From assembly GCF_013394695.1 (NCBI RefSeq), contig NZ_CP058258.1:1701731-1765730 (forward strand): a stretch of DNA of 64,000 nucleotides. The letters are read 5' to 3'. The notes under the pieces are model-generated. The model saw only the letters and a list, made by a program, of their open reading frames with translations. It had not been told where the DNA came from and did not search any database. Made by a program: the position numbers and the translations under genes. The stretch is from Streptococcus sp. oral taxon 061 (GTDB lineage: Bacteria > Bacillota > Bacilli > Lactobacillales > Streptococcaceae). Shown one piece after another: positions 31,015-61,079 of this stretch. Every line of letters begins with the position of its first letter. Position 1 is the stretch's first letter.

Positions 31015-31677
31015 TCATCTTACGAGGGAAAATGTTCTAACCTCTTCTGCTCCTGCATTTTCTAGCATACTCTTGACACGGTTAACAGTCGCTCCCGTCG
31101 TATAAATATCATCAATCAATAGAATTTTCTTTGGAACCCTACTGTCTTCTTTAATAAAAAATGGAAGTTCCGTGGCCAAACGCTCTGAACGATTTTTAGA
31201 AGAACTTGCTTTTTCTTCTCTTTTCCCTAATGCGTCCTGATGGGAAAGTCCTGCAGCCTCTATTAGGCCTGCAACCTGATTAAAACCTCTTTTTGCATAC
31301 CTCTCAGGGCTTAACGGTATTAAAATAAAATGGTAATCCTTGTATTTTTTTAAATTCTCATTTAAAATCATTGCAAAAGCTTTTCGGAGAATATAATCGC
31401 CATCAAATTTGTAACGATTAAAAAAGTCTTTCATTGCTTGATTATAAGTAAAAATCGCTTCATGACTTACTGCAAACCCTTCTTTACACCAAAGTTGACA
31501 ATCTTGACACGATGTTGACACCCCTTTTTTATAACAATTTGGGCAATGTTCTTCCCCAATCATTTCAAAACTTGAGTAACAAGCTAAACAAAGTGAGCTC
31601 TCCTCCTTTTTCAAAAAAAGAAGCTCTCCAAAGGTTAGATTTTTCTTCAAATGTTGTCCACAAAGTAAACAAATCAT
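31015..31677 (-). CDS. comFC: Competence protein ComFC, phosphoribosyltransferase-like
   Basis: A 220-aa protein with N-terminal zinc-finger cysteines (CLLCGQHL, CLAC, then CPNC and CQDC) and a C-terminal type I phosphoribosyltransferase fold with the PRPP loop ILLIDDIYTTGAT. It works with ComFA in moving transforming single-stranded DNA into the cytoplasm. The start overlaps comFA by 4 bp, so they form one late-competence operon driven by the cin-box upstream of comFA. Confidence 0.93.
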   Translation of the reverse strand: MICLLCGQHLKKNLTFGELLFLKKEESSLCLACYSSFEMIGEEHCPNCYKKGVSTSCQDCQLWCKEGFAVSHEAIFTYNQAMKDFFNRYKFDGDYILRKAFAMILNENLKKYKDYHFILIPLSPERYAKRGFNQVAGLIEAAGLSHQDALGKREEKASSSKNRSERLATELPFFIKEDSRVPKKILLIDDIYTTGATVNRVKSMLENAGAEEVRTFSLVR

Positions 31678-32972
31678 AAGCCTGCCTCCTTGTTCATCAG
31701 CTTGATTTCCTTTATAGCATTCTTAATCGAACGGTTTAATCCATTATGAAAGAAAATTAAATCTCCTGTTGGCCTATCCATGCTACGACCTACACGTCCT
31801 CCAATTTGAATGAGACTTGATTTTGTAAAAAGACGATGGTTTGCTTCTACGACACAGACATCAACAGAAGGGAAGGTAACTCCGCGCTCCAATATTGTTG
31901 TGCTTATCAATATGGTCATTTCCCTATCCCTAAAAGCTTGAACTTGCTCTAATCTATCTTCAGTAACTGAGGATACGAAACCAATTTTCTCATTCGGAAA
32001 CTCTAGCTGCAAGATTTCCTTCAACTTCTCTCCCTTTGTAATTTCTGATGCAAATATTAGTAAGGGGTAGCCAGTTCTTCTCTGGTTTTCAACATATCTT
32101 TTTAACTTTAATGGTAGGCGAAACTTATCCAAACATTTATCCAGATCAGATAGCCAGACGGGTTTTGGAATAATTAAAGGATTCCCATGGAACCGCCTTG
32201 GTAGGCTTAGTCGTTTTAGTTCCCCTAGTCGAACCTTCTTATCCAACTCGTCTGTAGAAGTAGCGGTGAGGAAAATTCTTAGTCCATCATCCTTTACACA
32301 ATTCTTTACAGCTTTGTAAAGCATCCTGTTATCAACATATGGAAAAGCATCTACTTCATCTACTATTAGCAAATCAAAAGCATGATAAAACTTTAATAAT
32401 TGATGAGTCGTCGCAACAACCAGAGGTGTCCGAAAATATGGTTTGGACTCTCCATGCAGCAAGGCTATCTCACAAGTAAAATCATTCTGCAATCGCTTAT
32501 ACAATTCCAAACAAACATCTATACGGGGACTGGCTAGACAAACTGCGCCACCATCATTAATAACTTTCGCAACAACTTGATAAATCATCTCTGTCTTCCC
32601 AGCGCCAGTCACTGCATGAACTAAAGTTGGCTGCTGACTTTCTACCGCTTGAAGTAATCCCTCTGATACTTTCTCTTGAAATGGAGTCAATTGTCCCTTC
32701 CATTTAAGAACATCTTGTTTTGGAAATTTTTCCTGAGGGAAATAATATAATCCTTGATCACTCCTAACTCGCTTCATCAACAAGCATTCTCGGCAGTAAT
32801 GAGCATTAATAGGTAGAGACCATTCATCTTGAATCATACTATCACATCGTTGACAGAAGAGTTTCCCCTTCTCTTTTCTCATGCTTGGTAGCTTCTCCGC
32901 CAACTGTTGTTCTTCTGAGCTTAATTCTTGTTCTGTAAAAAGTCGACCAAGATAATTTGGATTTATTTTCAT
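31674..32972 (-). CDS. comFA: Competence DNA helicase ComFA
   Basis: A 432-aa superfamily 2 ATPase. A four-cysteine zinc finger (CQRC and CREC) precedes Walker A VTGAGKTEM, then DEVD (DEAD-like) and late helicase motifs (TTILERGVTFP, QIGGRVGRS). ComFA powers uptake of transforming DNA at the inner face of the membrane. The start lies only 7 bp past an exact cin-box, so the transcript leader should be very short or absent. Length and motifs look intact, so DNA uptake machinery seems preserved even though comC is missing from the comDE locus. Confidence 0.95.
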   Translation of the reverse strand: MKINPNYLGRLFTEQELSSEEQQLAEKLPSMRKEKGKLFCQRCDSMIQDEWSLPINAHYCRECLLMKRVRSDQGLYYFPQEKFPKQDVLKWKGQLTPFQEKVSEGLLQAVESQQPTLVHAVTGAGKTEMIYQVVAKVINDGGAVCLASPRIDVCLELYKRLQNDFTCEIALLHGESKPYFRTPLVVATTHQLLKFYHAFDLLIVDEVDAFPYVDNRMLYKAVKNCVKDDGLRIFLTATSTDELDKKVRLGELKRLSLPRRFHGNPLIIPKPVWLSDLDKCLDKFRLPLKLKRYVENQRRTGYPLLIFASEITKGEKLKEILQLEFPNEKIGFVSSVTEDRLEQVQAFRDREMTILISTTILERGVTFPSVDVCVVEANHRLFTKSSLIQIGGRVGRSMDRPTGDLIFFHNGLNRSIKNAIKEIKLMNKEAGL

Positions 32973-32979
32973 ACTTCTT

Positions 32980-32987
32980 TATTCGTA
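32980..32987 (-). promoter_or_regulatory. Cin-box (ComX/SigX promoter) of comFAC
   Basis: The minus strand reads TACGAATA, an exact match to the streptococcal late-competence box that serves as -10 for the alternative sigma factor ComX. It ends 7 bp before the comFA ATG. Confidence 0.88.
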
Positions 32988-33818: not shown

Positions 33819-34745
33819 ATGGCGATTTATAACAATATCACTGAACTTGTCGGTAGAACACCGATTGTTAAATTGAACAACATCGTACCTGAGGGTGCAG
33901 CAGATGTTTACGTAAAACTAGAAGCATTTAACCCAGGGTCATCCGTTAAAGACCGCATTGCTCTAAGCATGATTGAAAAAGCTGAACAAGAAGGTAAACT
34001 TAAACCTGGTTCTACTATTGTAGAAGCAACAAGCGGAAACACTGGTATCGGTCTTTCATGGGTTGGTGCTGCTAAAGGCTACAAAGTTGTCATCGTTATG
34101 CCTGAGACAATGAGTGTGGAACGTCGTAAAATCATCCAAGCATATGGTGCTGAACTCGTTCTAACTCCAGGAAGTGAAGGTATGAAAGGCGCTATTGCTA
34201 AAGCTGAAGAAATCGCTGCTGAACGTGATGGTTTCCTACCTTTGCAATTTATCAACCAAGCTAACCCAGAAGTTCACGAAAGAACAACAGGAGCTGAAAT
34301 TCTAGCTGATTTCGGAGCTGACGGTTTAGATGCCTTTGTTGCCGGTGTTGGTACTGGAGGAACTATTTCAGGTGTTTCTCATGCTCTTAAAGCTGCGAAT
34401 TCAAACATTCAAGTTTTTGCAGTTGAGGCAGACGAATCAGCTATCTTATCAGGCGAAAAACCTGGACCTCATAAGATTCAAGGTATCTCTGCTGGATTCA
34501 TCCCAGAAACACTTGACACGAAAGCTTACGATGGTATCGTTCGCGTAACATCAGACAATGCTCTTGCACTTGGTCGTGAAATCGGTGGAAAAGAAGGTTT
34601 CTTGGTAGGTATTTCTTCTGCCGCATCTATCTATGCAGCAATCGAAGTTGCTAAAAAACTTGGGGCAGGTAAAAAAATCCTTGCGCTTGCACCAGATAAC
34701 GGAGAACGTTACCTATCTACAGCACTCTATGAGTTTGAAGTCTAG
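33819..34745 (+). CDS. cysK: Cysteine synthase A (O-acetylserine sulfhydrylase)
   Basis: A 308-aa pyridoxal-phosphate enzyme of fold type II. The PLP lysine is in [12 protein letters not shown] (about residue 45), the substrate-binding loop is EATSGNTG, and the phosphate-binding glycine loop is GTGGTISG. It makes L-cysteine from O-acetylserine and sulfide in the cytoplasm. AGAGGTG lies 7 bp before the ATG. It is monocistronic, with its own terminator. The IS element lies 67 bp beyond its stop codon and does not touch the gene. Confidence 0.97.
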
Positions 34746-34760
34746 TCTCCTAAATACACA

Positions 34761-34784
34761 AAGCCCTTGTTAAAGGGCTTTTTA
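34761..34784 (+). terminator. Terminator of cysK
   Basis: AAGCCCTT (34761-34768) pairs with AAGGGCTT (34773-34780), then TTT follows. It precedes the IS and remains intact. Confidence 0.85.
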
Positions 34785-34812
34785 ATTTTTTATAAAAGAA
34801 AAAGGAAGCAAA

Positions 34813-34837
34813 TGAACTGCACCCCAAAAGTTAGACA
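34813..34837 (+). repeat. Left terminal inverted repeat of the IS
   Basis: A 25-bp end beginning TGAACTGCACCCC. It matches the reverse complement of 36224-36248 at 22 of 25 positions. Confidence 0.9.
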
Positions 34838-34860
34838 GGAAAAAATCTAACTTTTGGGGT
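34821..34860 (+). terminator. Hairpin inside the IS left end
   Basis: The 15 bases at 34821-34835, largely within the left repeat, are perfectly complementary to 34846-34860 across a 10-nt loop. GTTTTATT follows, then the orfA start at 34869. In transcripts entering from outside this would form a terminator-like structure just before the transposase, a common way for an IS to avoid activation by neighbouring promoters. Confidence 0.65.
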
Positions 34861-34868
34861 GTTTTATT

Positions 34869-35387
34869 ATGAAATTAACTTATGAAGATAAAGTTCGGAT
34901 CTATGAACTCAAAAAGCAAGGAGAGAGCTTTAGAAAGCTTTCAAATCAATTTGGGATAAATATTTCTAATCTTCAGTACATGATTAAATTGATTGATCGT
35001 TATGGGATAAAAATCGTCAAAAAAGGAAAGAATTGTTACTATTCTCCTGAACTAAAACAAGAGATCATTGATAAAGTTCTTCTTGAAGGTCGTTCACAAA
35101 TTAGGGTGTCTCTGGATTATGCTCTTCCAAGTAGTGGATTACTTTCGAATTGGCTGGCACAATACAAGAAAAACGGGTATACTATTGTTGAGAAAATAAG
35201 AGGGAGACCACCTAAAATGGGACGTAAGTCAAAGAAGAAACCTGAAGAGATGACAGAGTTAGAACGTCTTCAAGCAGAAAATGAATACCTGAGAGCGGAG
35301 AATGCTGTTCTAAAAAAGTTGAGAGAACTCCGATTGAGGGACGAAAAAGAGCAAGAAGAAAAACGGAAATTGTCCGAGGATTGGTAA
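34869..35387 (+). CDS. IS3-family transposase OrfA
   Basis: A 172-aa DNA-binding protein. A helix-turn-helix lies at about residues 5-50 ([18 protein letters not shown]) and a second at about 60-110. A leucine-zipper-like coiled coil at the C-terminus (about 130-165, [18 protein letters not shown]) is typical of IS150-group OrfA. I chose the ATG at 34869, because the TTG at 34854 lies inside the upstream hairpin. The gene contains A AAA AAG at 35312-35318 in the correct phase for a -1 frameshift that yields the OrfAB transposase; OrfA alone usually represses. Confidence 0.92.
35312..35318 (+). promoter_or_regulatory. Programmed -1 frameshift site (A6G heptamer)
   Basis: AAAAAAG is phased as A AAA AAG in orfA. 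After slipping back one base, the frame stays open through to orfB with no stop codon, as needed for an OrfAB fusion. Confidence 0.8.
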
Positions 35388-36217
35388 CAGAGTTTTCTTT
35401 AGAGATTCTTCTAAAGATTATTAAGCTTGCCCGTTCAACTTATTATTATCATTTAAAACAGCTCGATCAAAACGATAAAGATTATGATGTTAAAGTTGAA
35501 ATTCAAGCTATTTTTACTGAGCATAAAGGGAATTACGGCTATCGTCGAATGACTCTTGAATTGAGGAATCGTGGTTTTGTAGTGAATCATAAGAAGGTGC
35601 AACGTCTAATGAAGGTCCTTGGTTTAAGTGCTCGAATTCGTCGTAAACGGAAGTATTCTTCATACCAAGGAGAGATTGGCAAGAAAGCAGACAATCTTAT
35701 TCAACGTCAATTTGAAGCAACCAAACCAATGCAAAAGTGCTACACAGATGTGACAGAATTTACCATTCCAGCAAGCAGTCAAAAGCTTTATTTATCACCA
35801 GTTTTAGATGGCTTTAACAGCGAAATTATCTCCTACAATCTTTCTACTTCACCGAACTTAGTACAAATGAAAGCTATGCTAGAACAAGCCTTTACAGAGA
35901 ACCATTACGAAAATACAATTCTCCATAGTGACCAAGGATGGCAATACCAACACGATTTCTATCATCATTTTTTAAAGAATAAGGGAATCCAACCATCTAT
36001 GTCACGTAAGGGAAATAGCCCAGATAACGGTATGATGGAATCTTTCTTTGGCATTCTTAAGTCTGAAATGTTTTATGGTTATGAGAATACGTTTCAGTCA
36101 CTTGAGCACTTGGAACAAGCTATTGTAGACTATATTGATTACTACAACAACAAACGAATTAAGGTAAAACTAAAAGGACTTAGTCCTGTACAATACAGAA
36201 CTAAATCCTTTGGGTAA
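35381..36217 (+). CDS. IS3-family transposase OrfB (catalytic, DDE)
   Basis: A 278-aa segment from the first possible TTG, normally expressed fused to OrfA by frameshift. An HTH_21 domain (about 40-100, with [13 protein letters not shown]) precedes an rve-type integrase core (about 115-275). The DDE residues can be placed in [18 protein letters not shown] and [12 protein letters not shown]. The overlap with orfA is 7 bp and the frame is -1. There is no stop or frameshift lesion, so the transposase looks functional. Confidence 0.92.
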
Positions 36218-58640: not shown

Positions 58641-58645
58641 TAATA

Positions 58646-58717
58646 TAGTCCGTACGGGATTCGAACCCGTGTTACCGCCGTGAAAAGGCGGTGTCTTAAC
58701 CCCTTGACCAACGGACC
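58646..58717 (-). tRNA. tRNA-Glu (TTC)
   Basis: The minus strand begins GGTCCGTTGGTCAAG. The anticodon loop CTTTTCA gives TTC (Glu), and the T-arm GGTTCGAATCC is canonical. It lies 5 bp from tRNA-Asn, and the pair is downstream of comE. Confidence 0.95.
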
Positions 58718-58768
58718 ATCTATCTGTAGCAGATATAACCATTATATCAATTTCTTACTAATTGTCAA

Positions 58769-59521
58769 TCACTTTTTAGATTTTTTCTCCAGAATATCTC
58801 TTAATTTCCGAACCTTGAGACGGGTAATCGGGCAGCGATGTTCCTCATAAAAAACCACTTCTAAATTTTTTCGATCAATTTCCCTAATATTTCCTACATT
58901 AACAAGAAATGATTTATGAGCAGAATAAAATCTTTGAGTATCTTTATCTTTTTCTTGAATATCCGCCATAGTCCCATAAAATTCTTTGGCAAAATTCTTA
59001 CCAATAATCCTTAACTTATGAGATACTCCTGTTGTTTCAATATATAAAATATCATGGTAGGGAATTTTTAAATCATTTCCTTTGTAGTTATAGTCAAAAT
59101 AATCCACAACATCTTTATTTTCAAGCAGCATACTTTTGGTATATAAGATACTCTGTTCGATACGTTTTTTAAATAATTCATCATTGATATCTTTATCAAC
59201 AAAATCCAAGGCTGATACTTGATATTTGTAAGTTAAGGTAGCAAATTCTGATCTACTAGTGATAAATACGATAATTGCATAGGGATTGTGGCGACGAATA
59301 AACTGTGCTACCTCAAATCCTTTTTTCTCAACTCCATGAATATCAATATCTAGAAAATAAAGCTGGTTTACTTCATCATTTTCGATATATTCCTTAAACT
59401 CTCGTTCTTTACCTGTTGTTTTATAAGAAATAGGAATATTCAATTCCTTTGAAATTTCATCCAAGGTTCTTTCTAATCTGACTTGATGTTGAATAACATC
59501 TTCTAAAATTAATACTTTCAT
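58769..59521 (-). CDS. comE: Competence response regulator ComE
   Basis: A 250-aa response regulator. The receiver domain (about 1-125) has the phospho-acceptor Asp58 in YFLDID, and a C-terminal LytTR DNA-binding domain (about 145-245) is present. In pneumococcus phosphorylated ComE binds paired direct repeats at comCDE and comX. It overlaps comD by 4 bp. A ComE-type repeat pair is present upstream of comD, so the autoregulatory loop is formally intact apart from the missing pheromone gene. Confidence 0.95.
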   Translation of the reverse strand: MKVLILEDVIQHQVRLERTLDEISKELNIPISYKTTGKEREFKEYIENDEVNQLYFLDIDIHGVEKKGFEVAQFIRRHNPYAIIVFITSRSEFATLTYKYQVSALDFVDKDINDELFKKRIEQSILYTKSMLLENKDVVDYFDYNYKGNDLKIPYHDILYIETTGVSHKLRIIGKNFAKEFYGTMADIQEKDKDTQRFYSAHKSFLVNVGNIREIDRKNLEVVFYEEHRCPITRLKVRKLRDILEKKSKK

Positions 59522-60837
59522 TCAAACTCTCTCTTAAATCTAATAATCTGTCTAAACGTACTATCTTCCATCTCTGTCTCTAAAATGATATTTTCATACT
59601 TATCCAAAATCTCTTTGACATTATTAAGGCCAATTCCTCTATTTCTACCTTTAGTAGAAAAACCTAGTTCAAACAAGTCTTCTGAAGGTGTCATAGTAAT
59701 TCTACACGAATTTTGAATCACGATAACTGTTTCTAAATCCATCTTAATCACTGCAACTTCCATTTGTTTTAAATAACTTTCTGCAGCACCCTCAACAGCA
59801 TTATTTAACAAAACACTCATAATACGAACAAGATCGAGTAAATCGATTGACAATCTTGTGATAATATCCTTTACTTCTAATGTAAACTCTACGTCATTAT
59901 TTCTGGCATATACAATAGATTGAGCAATCAAACTTCGTAAAGCTGAATCTTCTATATTGTTTAAATCAAAGTATGTATACTTATCTGAACGTAATTTTTG
60001 ATTAGCTTTGACTAGAACTTCATTGTAAACCCTGTAAATTTCCTGTAAATCTCCACTATCAATCGCCATTTGCATACTAACAAGCATACCTGCATAATCA
60101 TGACGAAAACCACGGATTTCATTGTACAAACCAACAATTTCATCTGTATATGTCTGTAAATGTTCTTGTTCAAATTTTTTCTGTTTTAGGGCAATTTCTT
60201 TTTCAACTCGCACCTTATGAGAATTCATAGCGAAGAATATTAGTAGTAAACAGATAAAGACAATTGTTGCTAAAATACTACTGAAATTATTAAAATGAGC
60301 ATGAATACCCACCATATCTGAAATGAATAATAGAACTTGTAAAGTAAAGAAAATTAAAATGACCTTTTTGAAAAATGGATAAAGGTAATTTTTATCAAAA
60401 TAAGTAAGTTCAAGATGAAAATAAGTAATAATTTTTTTAGTGATAAAATACGTCAGCATCAAAACCACTACAAAAAATAAATCTTCATATTTTATTAAGA
60501 AAGAATCACCTGTTATAGAGGATATGATTACTGCTATAAATGTATGAGTACTTTGATATAATAAAGACAATAATAAACTAATAAAAATAGCTTTGAACTT
60601 ATTATATTTTTTAAATCCTATTAAATAAGCAAAGATAATACAGGTAAATGAAATTTTTTCCATTCCTAATCCATGTAAAGAAGTTAAATAGAATAAAATT
60701 TCAACAATAGACTGTAATATAAATACCCAAGAAATAAACAGATATCTTTCTTTTTTTATTGCCTTACAAATGAGTTCATAGCTATTTGTTAGAATAAGAA
60801 TATGAAGAATAACTATGAGTATTTTCAATAAATCCAT
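59518..60837 (-). CDS. comD: Competence pheromone sensor kinase ComD
   Basis: A 439-aa HPK10-type histidine kinase with about six or seven N-terminal membrane helices (about 1-210) that form the pheromone sensor. The phospho-acceptor His is in IRGFRHDYAGML (about residue 248), and a C-terminal ATPase domain has NNAVEGA and GRNRGIGLNNVKE. The C-terminal half is nearly pneumococcal from memory, while the sensor half is divergent, as expected for a different pherotype. The ribosome-binding site GGGAG is present. It directly follows the promoter; comC, which should lie between, is absent. Confidence 0.95.
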   Translation of the reverse strand: MDLLKILIVILHILILTNSYELICKAIKKERYLFISWVFILQSIVEILFYLTSLHGLGMEKISFTCIIFAYLIGFKKYNKFKAIFISLLLSLLYQSTHTFIAVIISSITGDSFLIKYEDLFFVVVLMLTYFITKKIITYFHLELTYFDKNYLYPFFKKVILIFFTLQVLLFISDMVGIHAHFNNFSSILATIVFICLLLIFFAMNSHKVRVEKEIALKQKKFEQEHLQTYTDEIVGLYNEIRGFRHDYAGMLVSMQMAIDSGDLQEIYRVYNEVLVKANQKLRSDKYTYFDLNNIEDSALRSLIAQSIVYARNNDVEFTLEVKDIITRLSIDLLDLVRIMSVLLNNAVEGAAESYLKQMEVAVIKMDLETVIVIQNSCRITMTPSEDLFELGFSTKGRNRGIGLNNVKEILDKYENIILETEMEDSTFRQIIRFKREFE

Positions 60838-60890
60838 TATATCTCCCTATAATGTTTTCTCTTTTTCTTTATAAATAAACTTACAAGCCT

Positions 60891-60957
60891 ATTATACAAA
60901 ACGGAGTCTGTTTTAAAACATTTCATTCTCAACTGCACATTTTTGTACCTGAACTGT
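60891..60957 (-). promoter_or_regulatory. ComE-box and promoter of comDE
   Basis: On the minus strand ACAGTTCAG (60957-60949) and GCAGTTGAG (60936-60928) are direct repeats separated by exactly 12 nt, the ComE-binding arrangement. TATAAT lies at 60896-60891. The leader to comD is then only about 47 nt. Confidence 0.82.
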
Positions 60958-60964
60958 CAATTTT

Positions 60965-60993
60965 TACAAAAAACGCTGGGTTTCCCCAGCGTT
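60965..60993 (-). terminator. Terminator of tRNA-Arg
   Basis: AACGCTGGG / CCCAGCGTT forms a 9-bp stem with a 4-nt loop, followed by TTTTTTGT on the minus strand. It insulates the tRNA from the comDE promoter. Confidence 0.85.
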
Positions 60994-61005
60994 AAATCTA
61001 GTATA

Positions 61006-61079
61006 TGATCCCAGCAGGATTCGAACCTGCGACCGTTCGCTTAGAAGGCGAATGCTCTATCCAGCTGAGCTATGAGACC
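61006..61079 (-). tRNA. tRNA-Arg (TCT)
   Basis: The minus strand starts GGTCTCATAGCTCAG. The anticodon loop CTTCTAA gives TCT (Arg, AGA codons), and the T-arm GGTTCGAATCC is canonical. It marks the upstream border of the com locus. Confidence 0.94.

Follow-up and report, generated by a model that had tools for sequence, protein, structure and literature searches.

Receiver half of a mitis-type competence circuit, with comC and comAB deleted and comDE under constraint, in oral streptococci of the Streptococcus infantis group

The closest described relatives of the locus considered here are the ComABCDE systems of mitis-group streptococci, in which comC promoters have spacings of 12 nt between two ComE-box repeats and 31 nt from the second repeat to the -10 element (PMC6001120, Table 2). 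Departures from the complete system have been reported. S. parasanguinis FW213 and ATCC 15912 carry ComD and ComE while ComC is reported absent (PMC9638458), and in a 4,089-genome study comC-less pneumococci made up approximately 0.27% of strains, which the authors suspect to reflect incomplete sequencing, inferring strong selection against comC loss in pneumococcus (PMC5629823). In pneumococcus R6, cross-pherotype sensing that induces comM has been described (Johnsborg 2008, as cited in PMC6456647). Within the literature searched (supplementary tables lay outside its scope, as did most subscription journals) we came across no account of S. infantis strains that had lost comC or comAB. Stable listen-only states in peptide quorum sensing remain an open evolutionary question, which a commensal group without pheromone and exporter, with a constrained receptor and with comC-positive kin as controls, makes directly testable.

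Here we characterize the com locus of the window, by which we mean the whole stretch of DNA analyzed, comprising the final 64 kb of one 1,765,730-base contig from an oral Streptococcus of the S. infantis group. Of a mitis-type ComABCDE circuit the locus retains the receiver half: comC and comAB have been deleted, comDE is constrained and the ComE-box promoter is kept. At roughly even odds (a probability of about 0.5), we propose that this ComDE circuit acts in reception only and has probably been maintained for sensing the pheromone of neighbors.

The original prediction, made from the letters of the window, held that between tRNA-Arg and comD there remain a terminator, a pair of ComE repeats, a TATAAT and a leader running into the comD ribosome-binding site. 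This arrangement was confirmed (Table 1): the gap measures 168 bp, comC is absent from it, and the comDE promoter consists of two 9-mers 12 nt apart with the -10 element at 31 nt, as in the ComE-box consensus taken from PMC6001120. A sigma-70 scan is ill-suited to promoters of this type. The predicted lack of a double-glycine frame also held, the sole ORF of at least 25 aa within the gap being a 33-aa GTG frame without Gly-Gly. The genome-wide search for ComC that had been proposed, carried out with the Pfam model PF03047, gave no match over cut-off in the readable sequence of the whole window genome; two sub-threshold matches lie inside long frames, at a level (E <= 10) at which eight of 14 controls match as well.

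Table 1. Features of the com locus and of comFA, in window coordinates.
Feature	Position	Strand	Description
comFA	31674-32972	-	intact 432-aa frame, helicase domains by Pfam; SigX box TACGAATA at 32980-32987
tRNA-Glu (ttc)	58645-58718	-	downstream border of the com locus
comE	58769-59521	-	250-aa response regulator, receiver and LytTR domains, intact; adjoins comD
comD	59518-60837	-	439-aa pheromone receptor histidine kinase, intact, GHKL PF14501; starts MDLLKILIVILHIL
comD ribosome-binding site AGGGAGA	60842-60848	-	
A-rich stretch, comC absent (~140-150 bp)	60856-60870	-	pre-comC leader joins comC-comD intergenic sequence; alignment-based
-10 element TATAAT	60891-60896	-	31 nt past ComE-box repeat 2
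ComE-box repeat 2 GCAGTTGAG	60928-60936	-	12 nt from repeat 1
ComE-box repeat 1 ACAGTTCAG	60949-60957	-	
terminator after tRNA-Arg	60972-60993	-	
tRNA-Arg (tct)	61006-61079	-	upstream border of the com locus

Alignment with comC-positive loci, likewise proposed at the outset, mapped the deletion to the A-rich stretch. Across six comC-less and seven comC-positive leaders, the left arm runs to this stretch, ahead of the point at which comC would begin, and the right arm resumes in the comC-comD gap, as in the S. infantis type strain, approximately 140-150 bp being gone. Direct repeats of at least 8 nt spanning comC were not present in two comC-positive loci. Since both arms align, the suggestion of a precise removal that left the comDE promoter in place stands, while its framing as an event in one strain does not, because six genomes share the haplotype. 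Two objections were considered and rejected. An assembly error at the junction is very unlikely because five other assemblies carry the identical junction; and the possibility that the lineage never had comC at this site is contradicted by the alignment of both arms with comC-positive loci and by the presence of comC there in 92 of 99 comD genomes.

The comC-less state was found both in a first scan of named genomes with ComD and in a broader survey. The scan gave 13 loci, 12 of them streptococcal, and four of the latter (S. infantis UC921A, SO and SPAR10, and 74_SPSE, a genome labelled S. pseudopneumoniae) were comC-less with the same leader. Among 284 Streptococcus genomes surveyed, 99 encode a ComD of at least 64% identity, the next match standing at 46%; comC was called from the upstream DNA in 46 of these and from the coordinates of Pfam ComC beside comD in 53. 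The gene is present in 92, absent in six (the window genome, the four just named, and G271), which have one common leader, and reduced to a remnant in one, Streptococcus sp. SK643. In the last, a 23-aa comC remnant without Gly-Gly is followed by a full 445-aa comD, a loss apparently independent of the six-genome haplotype; SK643 has one stop in ComA and gave no match in the ComX search.

The original prediction named only the loss of comC. The search for comAB that accompanied it showed that the exporter is absent as well, so that the whole sending module is gone. TIGR01193, the model for bacteriocin-type ABC exporters, should cover ComA, and the absence of a ComA-type exporter rests on it rather than on a ComB search. 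It scored over cut-off in 93 of the 99 comD genomes (in two pieces in SK970, with one stop each in SK643 and G202) and was absent in exactly the six comC-less ones. This model presumably does not separate ComA from BlpA, so that some of the 93 presences may be BlpA; in the six comC-less genomes no C39-peptidase ABC transporter of either kind exceeded its cut-off. Two genes that we take to be acpP and purC flank comAB in the S. infantis type strain, and the distance from the end of acpP to a marker upstream of purC is 132 bp in the window genome versus 3,419 bp in the type strain. The scar is contiguous in four of the six (the window genome, SPAR10, 74_SPSE and G271); in SO and UC921A acpP and purC are separated from each other. 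At the scar in SO, cysK-, comFA- and comFC-like genes adjoin acpP, and UC921A has the same acpP-side sequence. Because a cysK-like gene adjoins acpP and the two flanking genes lie apart, an origin-spanning inversion seems to have broken at the scar in SO. In the window, two frames at 34869-36217 that we take to be IS-like adjoin the cysK-like gene (region 33819-36217).

Across the origin, the distance between the comC and comAB sites is a mere 39 kb or so, and the joint loss could therefore reflect linkage; the naive probability of the six-of-99 coincidence, approximately 9e-10, is not a valid P value, since the genomes share a haplotype and the loci are this close. A sign test for joint change of comC and comA, on 13 rows with comA coded as found and with SK643 and G072 (which would be discordant) set aside, gave three supported independent contrasts, all in one direction (p = 0.25), too few for significance. 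G072 is a counter-example, having the comAB-less junction with comC kept; its contig ends just inside comD, and comD was not found.

A tree of polA, the one gene used to represent lineages (SK970, whose polA is in two pieces, was left out), scatters the comC-less genomes, with five changes of which at least three are forced by supported branches, and rejects a single comC-less clade (AU p = 3e-6). In the tree of the ComD sensor half (first 200 codons) all six form one clade, with moderate support (83/79) below the starred level, and S. peroris stands beside it (98/99 for all seven). In trees of the ComD C-half and of comE, comC-less and comC-positive strains are mixed. Sensor-half dS is 0.08-0.38 among the five intact comC-less rows versus 0.41-0.84 to comC-positive rows (S. 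peroris left out); the pair G271 and 74_SPSE has a dS of 0.12 for the sensor half and of 1.37 for the C-half. Since the grouping seen with the sensor halves is not recovered with polA, the kinase half or comE, one comC-less haplotype seems to have spread by recombination, the leader and sensor domain appearing to have moved together between lineages. Another sign of recombination is the promoter half of the window, which is that of the comC-positive type strain and unlike those of the other S. infantis comC-less rows. Separately, the polA protein of G271 is 97% identical to that of the window genome, but its comE reaches no more than 79-82% identity with the others in the comparison, as if it came from an unsampled lineage or were evolving fast.

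ComD of the window is 96% identical to that of S. infantis SO and 88% to that of the S. infantis type strain, and contains GFRHDYAG, LLNNAVEG and STKGRNRGIGLNN, which we take to be its kinase boxes. Its sensor half shows 59-81% identity to comC-positive receptors among the best 24 rows. The nearest sensor halves paired with a pheromone are those of S. peroris (81%; mature peptide DRRITSFFANLFQKRKK) and S. infantis (77.5-80.4%; DKRLTYFITNLFPKRKK), which suggests these peptides as candidate ligands.

ComD and ComE are as constrained in comC-less as in comC-positive strains. With SPAR10 and S. peroris left out for their broken frames, comD gave dN/dS of 0.083-0.237 in ten comC-less pairs versus 0.099-0.263 in 15 comC-positive pairs, and the sensor half alone 0.16-0.43 versus 0.14-0.47. 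For ComE, the ten comC-less pairs that exclude G271 gave 0.018-0.043 (0.018-0.038 for the window against SO, UC921A, 74_SPSE and SPAR10) and the five that include it 0.073-0.101, the comE of G271 standing at 0.07-0.10 against every row; among comC-positive strains, 20 of 21 pairs fell at 0.008-0.085, the remaining pair reaching 0.263 at a dS of 0.006. Under neutral simulation along the sensor-half clade, the five intact rows should have gathered 4.2 stops (probability of zero, 0.014) and all six rows 6.6 (probability of zero, 0.0005); none was seen in the sensor half. One of the six comD genes, that of SPAR10, has a one-base frameshift near its start. An intact, selected receptor without a signal gene, as expected of an eavesdropper, is what is found, one receptor in six being frameshifted. 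The reverse state was observed in S. infantis SK970, in which comC is intact with a Gly-Gly leader and comD is full of stops; its ComA and ComX are each in two pieces. The type-strain record of S. peroris ATCC 700780 has an in-frame stop at comD codon 238, with comC, ComA and ComX present.

We searched for other ComE-box pairs in three genomes, using the reversed pattern as a control. Matches numbered 7 versus 17 for the control in the window genome, 8 versus 16 in SO and 14 versus 14 in the type strain; single matches therefore mean little, the counts not exceeding the control. Sharing alone is likewise weak evidence, since further one-mismatch pairs are common to two genomes (L171/L188, L172/L177 and L184/L185, the last inside a coding frame). 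What sets three kinds of site apart is a TATAAT placed exactly 31 nt beyond the pair. The first is that of comDE, in the window genome and the comC-positive type strain. The second, in the window genome, SO and the type strain, precedes a gene for a 208-217-aa membrane protein, which is followed by a CAAX-protease-like gene. This protein received no name from Pfam or NCBIfam, and among the 120 listed of its 157 relatives one is named, as 'hypothetical protein'; we term it ComM-like from its 37% identity over 208 aa to a query sequence taken as pneumococcal ComM. Alleles of comM are reported to be only 40% identical between S. mitis clusters (PMC6722419). The third, in the window genome and the type strain, precedes a gene that encodes a DUF6556 protein of 133 aa and neighbors a cysteine-desulfurase-like gene; it does not appear in the portion consulted of the published early-gene table and is a candidate new ComE target.

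Of the genes farther downstream, comX encodes an intact product of 159-165 aa in SO, UC921A, 74_SPSE and SPAR10, and the match in G271 is open and free of stops. Loss of ComX from the window genome was entertained and rejected, as the orthologous site holds unreadable letters in the sequence copy; the ComX search also gave no match in G203 and G244, the stretch in G244 likewise having unreadable letters. No strict ComE-box match was found before comX in any of the ten genomes searched (G271 was not among them), comC-positive ones included. The window also carries a late competence gene, presumably comFA, whose SigX box ends 7 nt before the ATG, so that its transcript would have almost no leader. 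The window contains TACGAATA seven times, a count that not one of 100 shuffled versions attained (expectation 1.3), and the sites other than the comFA promoter fall inside genes. The earlier statement that comFA keeps its promoter and frame was thus upheld. The wider view, that the downstream machinery is not obviously decayed, holds for comFA; the part concerning comX can be read only in the five other comC-less genomes, where the gene is intact.

If the circuit is receive-only, CSP-like peptides of neighbors, most likely of the S. infantis and S. peroris pherotypes that belong to the nearest sensor domains, would bind ComD; ligand-bound ComD would phosphorylate ComE; and ComE would switch on comDE and the ComM-like immunity operon, together with comX and competence in strains that have them. 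Such a cell would react to its neighbors' competence without making or exporting pheromone, and its immunity to their fratricidal lysins would perhaps be raised. Competence and fratricide immunity could then be triggered one way across strains. A bolder version, against which we would sooner bet than for it, is that the comC-less leader and sensor domain, in comAB-less genomes, constitute a 'null pherotype' that recombination is carrying through the S. infantis complex because hearing the pheromone of neighbors pays, through ComM-type immunity or through uptake of the DNA they release, without the cost of signaling. Were this so, peptide quorum sensing would offer a natural case in which selection favors receiving alone.

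The main competing account, which we consider less likely, is piecemeal decay, in which the S. infantis/S. peroris group is losing natural competence, the first genes to go having been comC and comAB, with comDE a remnant still unbroken in most lineages. Breakage among kin is consistent with it, com genes being broken or missing in SPAR10 (comD), SK970 (comD, ComA and ComX), S. peroris (comD), SK643 and G072, as is the reductive loss of competence genes described in S. mitis (PMC6722419, PMC6001120). Against it stand the matching dN/dS of ComD and ComE in comC-less and comC-positive rows, the lack of in-frame stops in the sensor half where four to seven are predicted, and the intact comX of all five readable comC-less genomes; and the occurrence of the haplotype in several lineages suggests spread rather than dying out. 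Still less probable, in our estimate, is a job independent of pheromone, with basal or stress-driven ComD/ComE signaling controlling comM and other genes without CSP. Retention of ComE boxes at comDE and ahead of the comM-like and DUF6556 genes would fit such a role, as would the divergent yet constrained comE of G271, but a CSP-free function should have relaxed the sensor half, which is instead constrained and forms one pherotype-like class. It is highly improbable that ComD is served by a functional comC, or by some other double-glycine peptide, encoded elsewhere in the genome and exported through a different transporter, for although the window genome copy has unreadable stretches and PF03047 covers only ComC-type leaders, that model found nothing over cut-off there, comC sits beside comD in 92 of 99 genomes, and none of the six has a C39-peptidase transporter over the TIGR01193 cut-off, even a BlpA-like one.

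Set beside known systems, the receive-only circuit that we favor agrees with the ComABCDE systems of S. infantis ATCC 700779 and S. pneumoniae in its tRNA-Arg and tRNA-Glu borders near the origin, its comD-comE order, its ComE-box promoter with spacings of 12 and 31 nt, the ComE box before a comM-like gene and the SigX box of comFA. It differs in that the window genome has neither comC nor comAB and hence no sender module, and because these two elements are wanting the system is not a complete member of ComABCDE. With the two S. parasanguinis strains it shares the presence of ComD and ComE without ComC, but the S. parasanguinis ComD is reported to lack the H- and N-boxes (PMC9638458), whereas comD of the window is full length and constrained. 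The resemblance to R6 is one of function, in that sensing the CSP of others would raise ComM immunity (Johnsborg 2008, as cited in PMC6456647); unlike R6, which produces CSP itself, the comC-less strains are without genes for CSP production. As in the comC-less pneumococci, comC is missing here, but in contrast to what is reported for those strains (PMC5629823) the haplotype is common to six genomes, and comAB has been lost besides.
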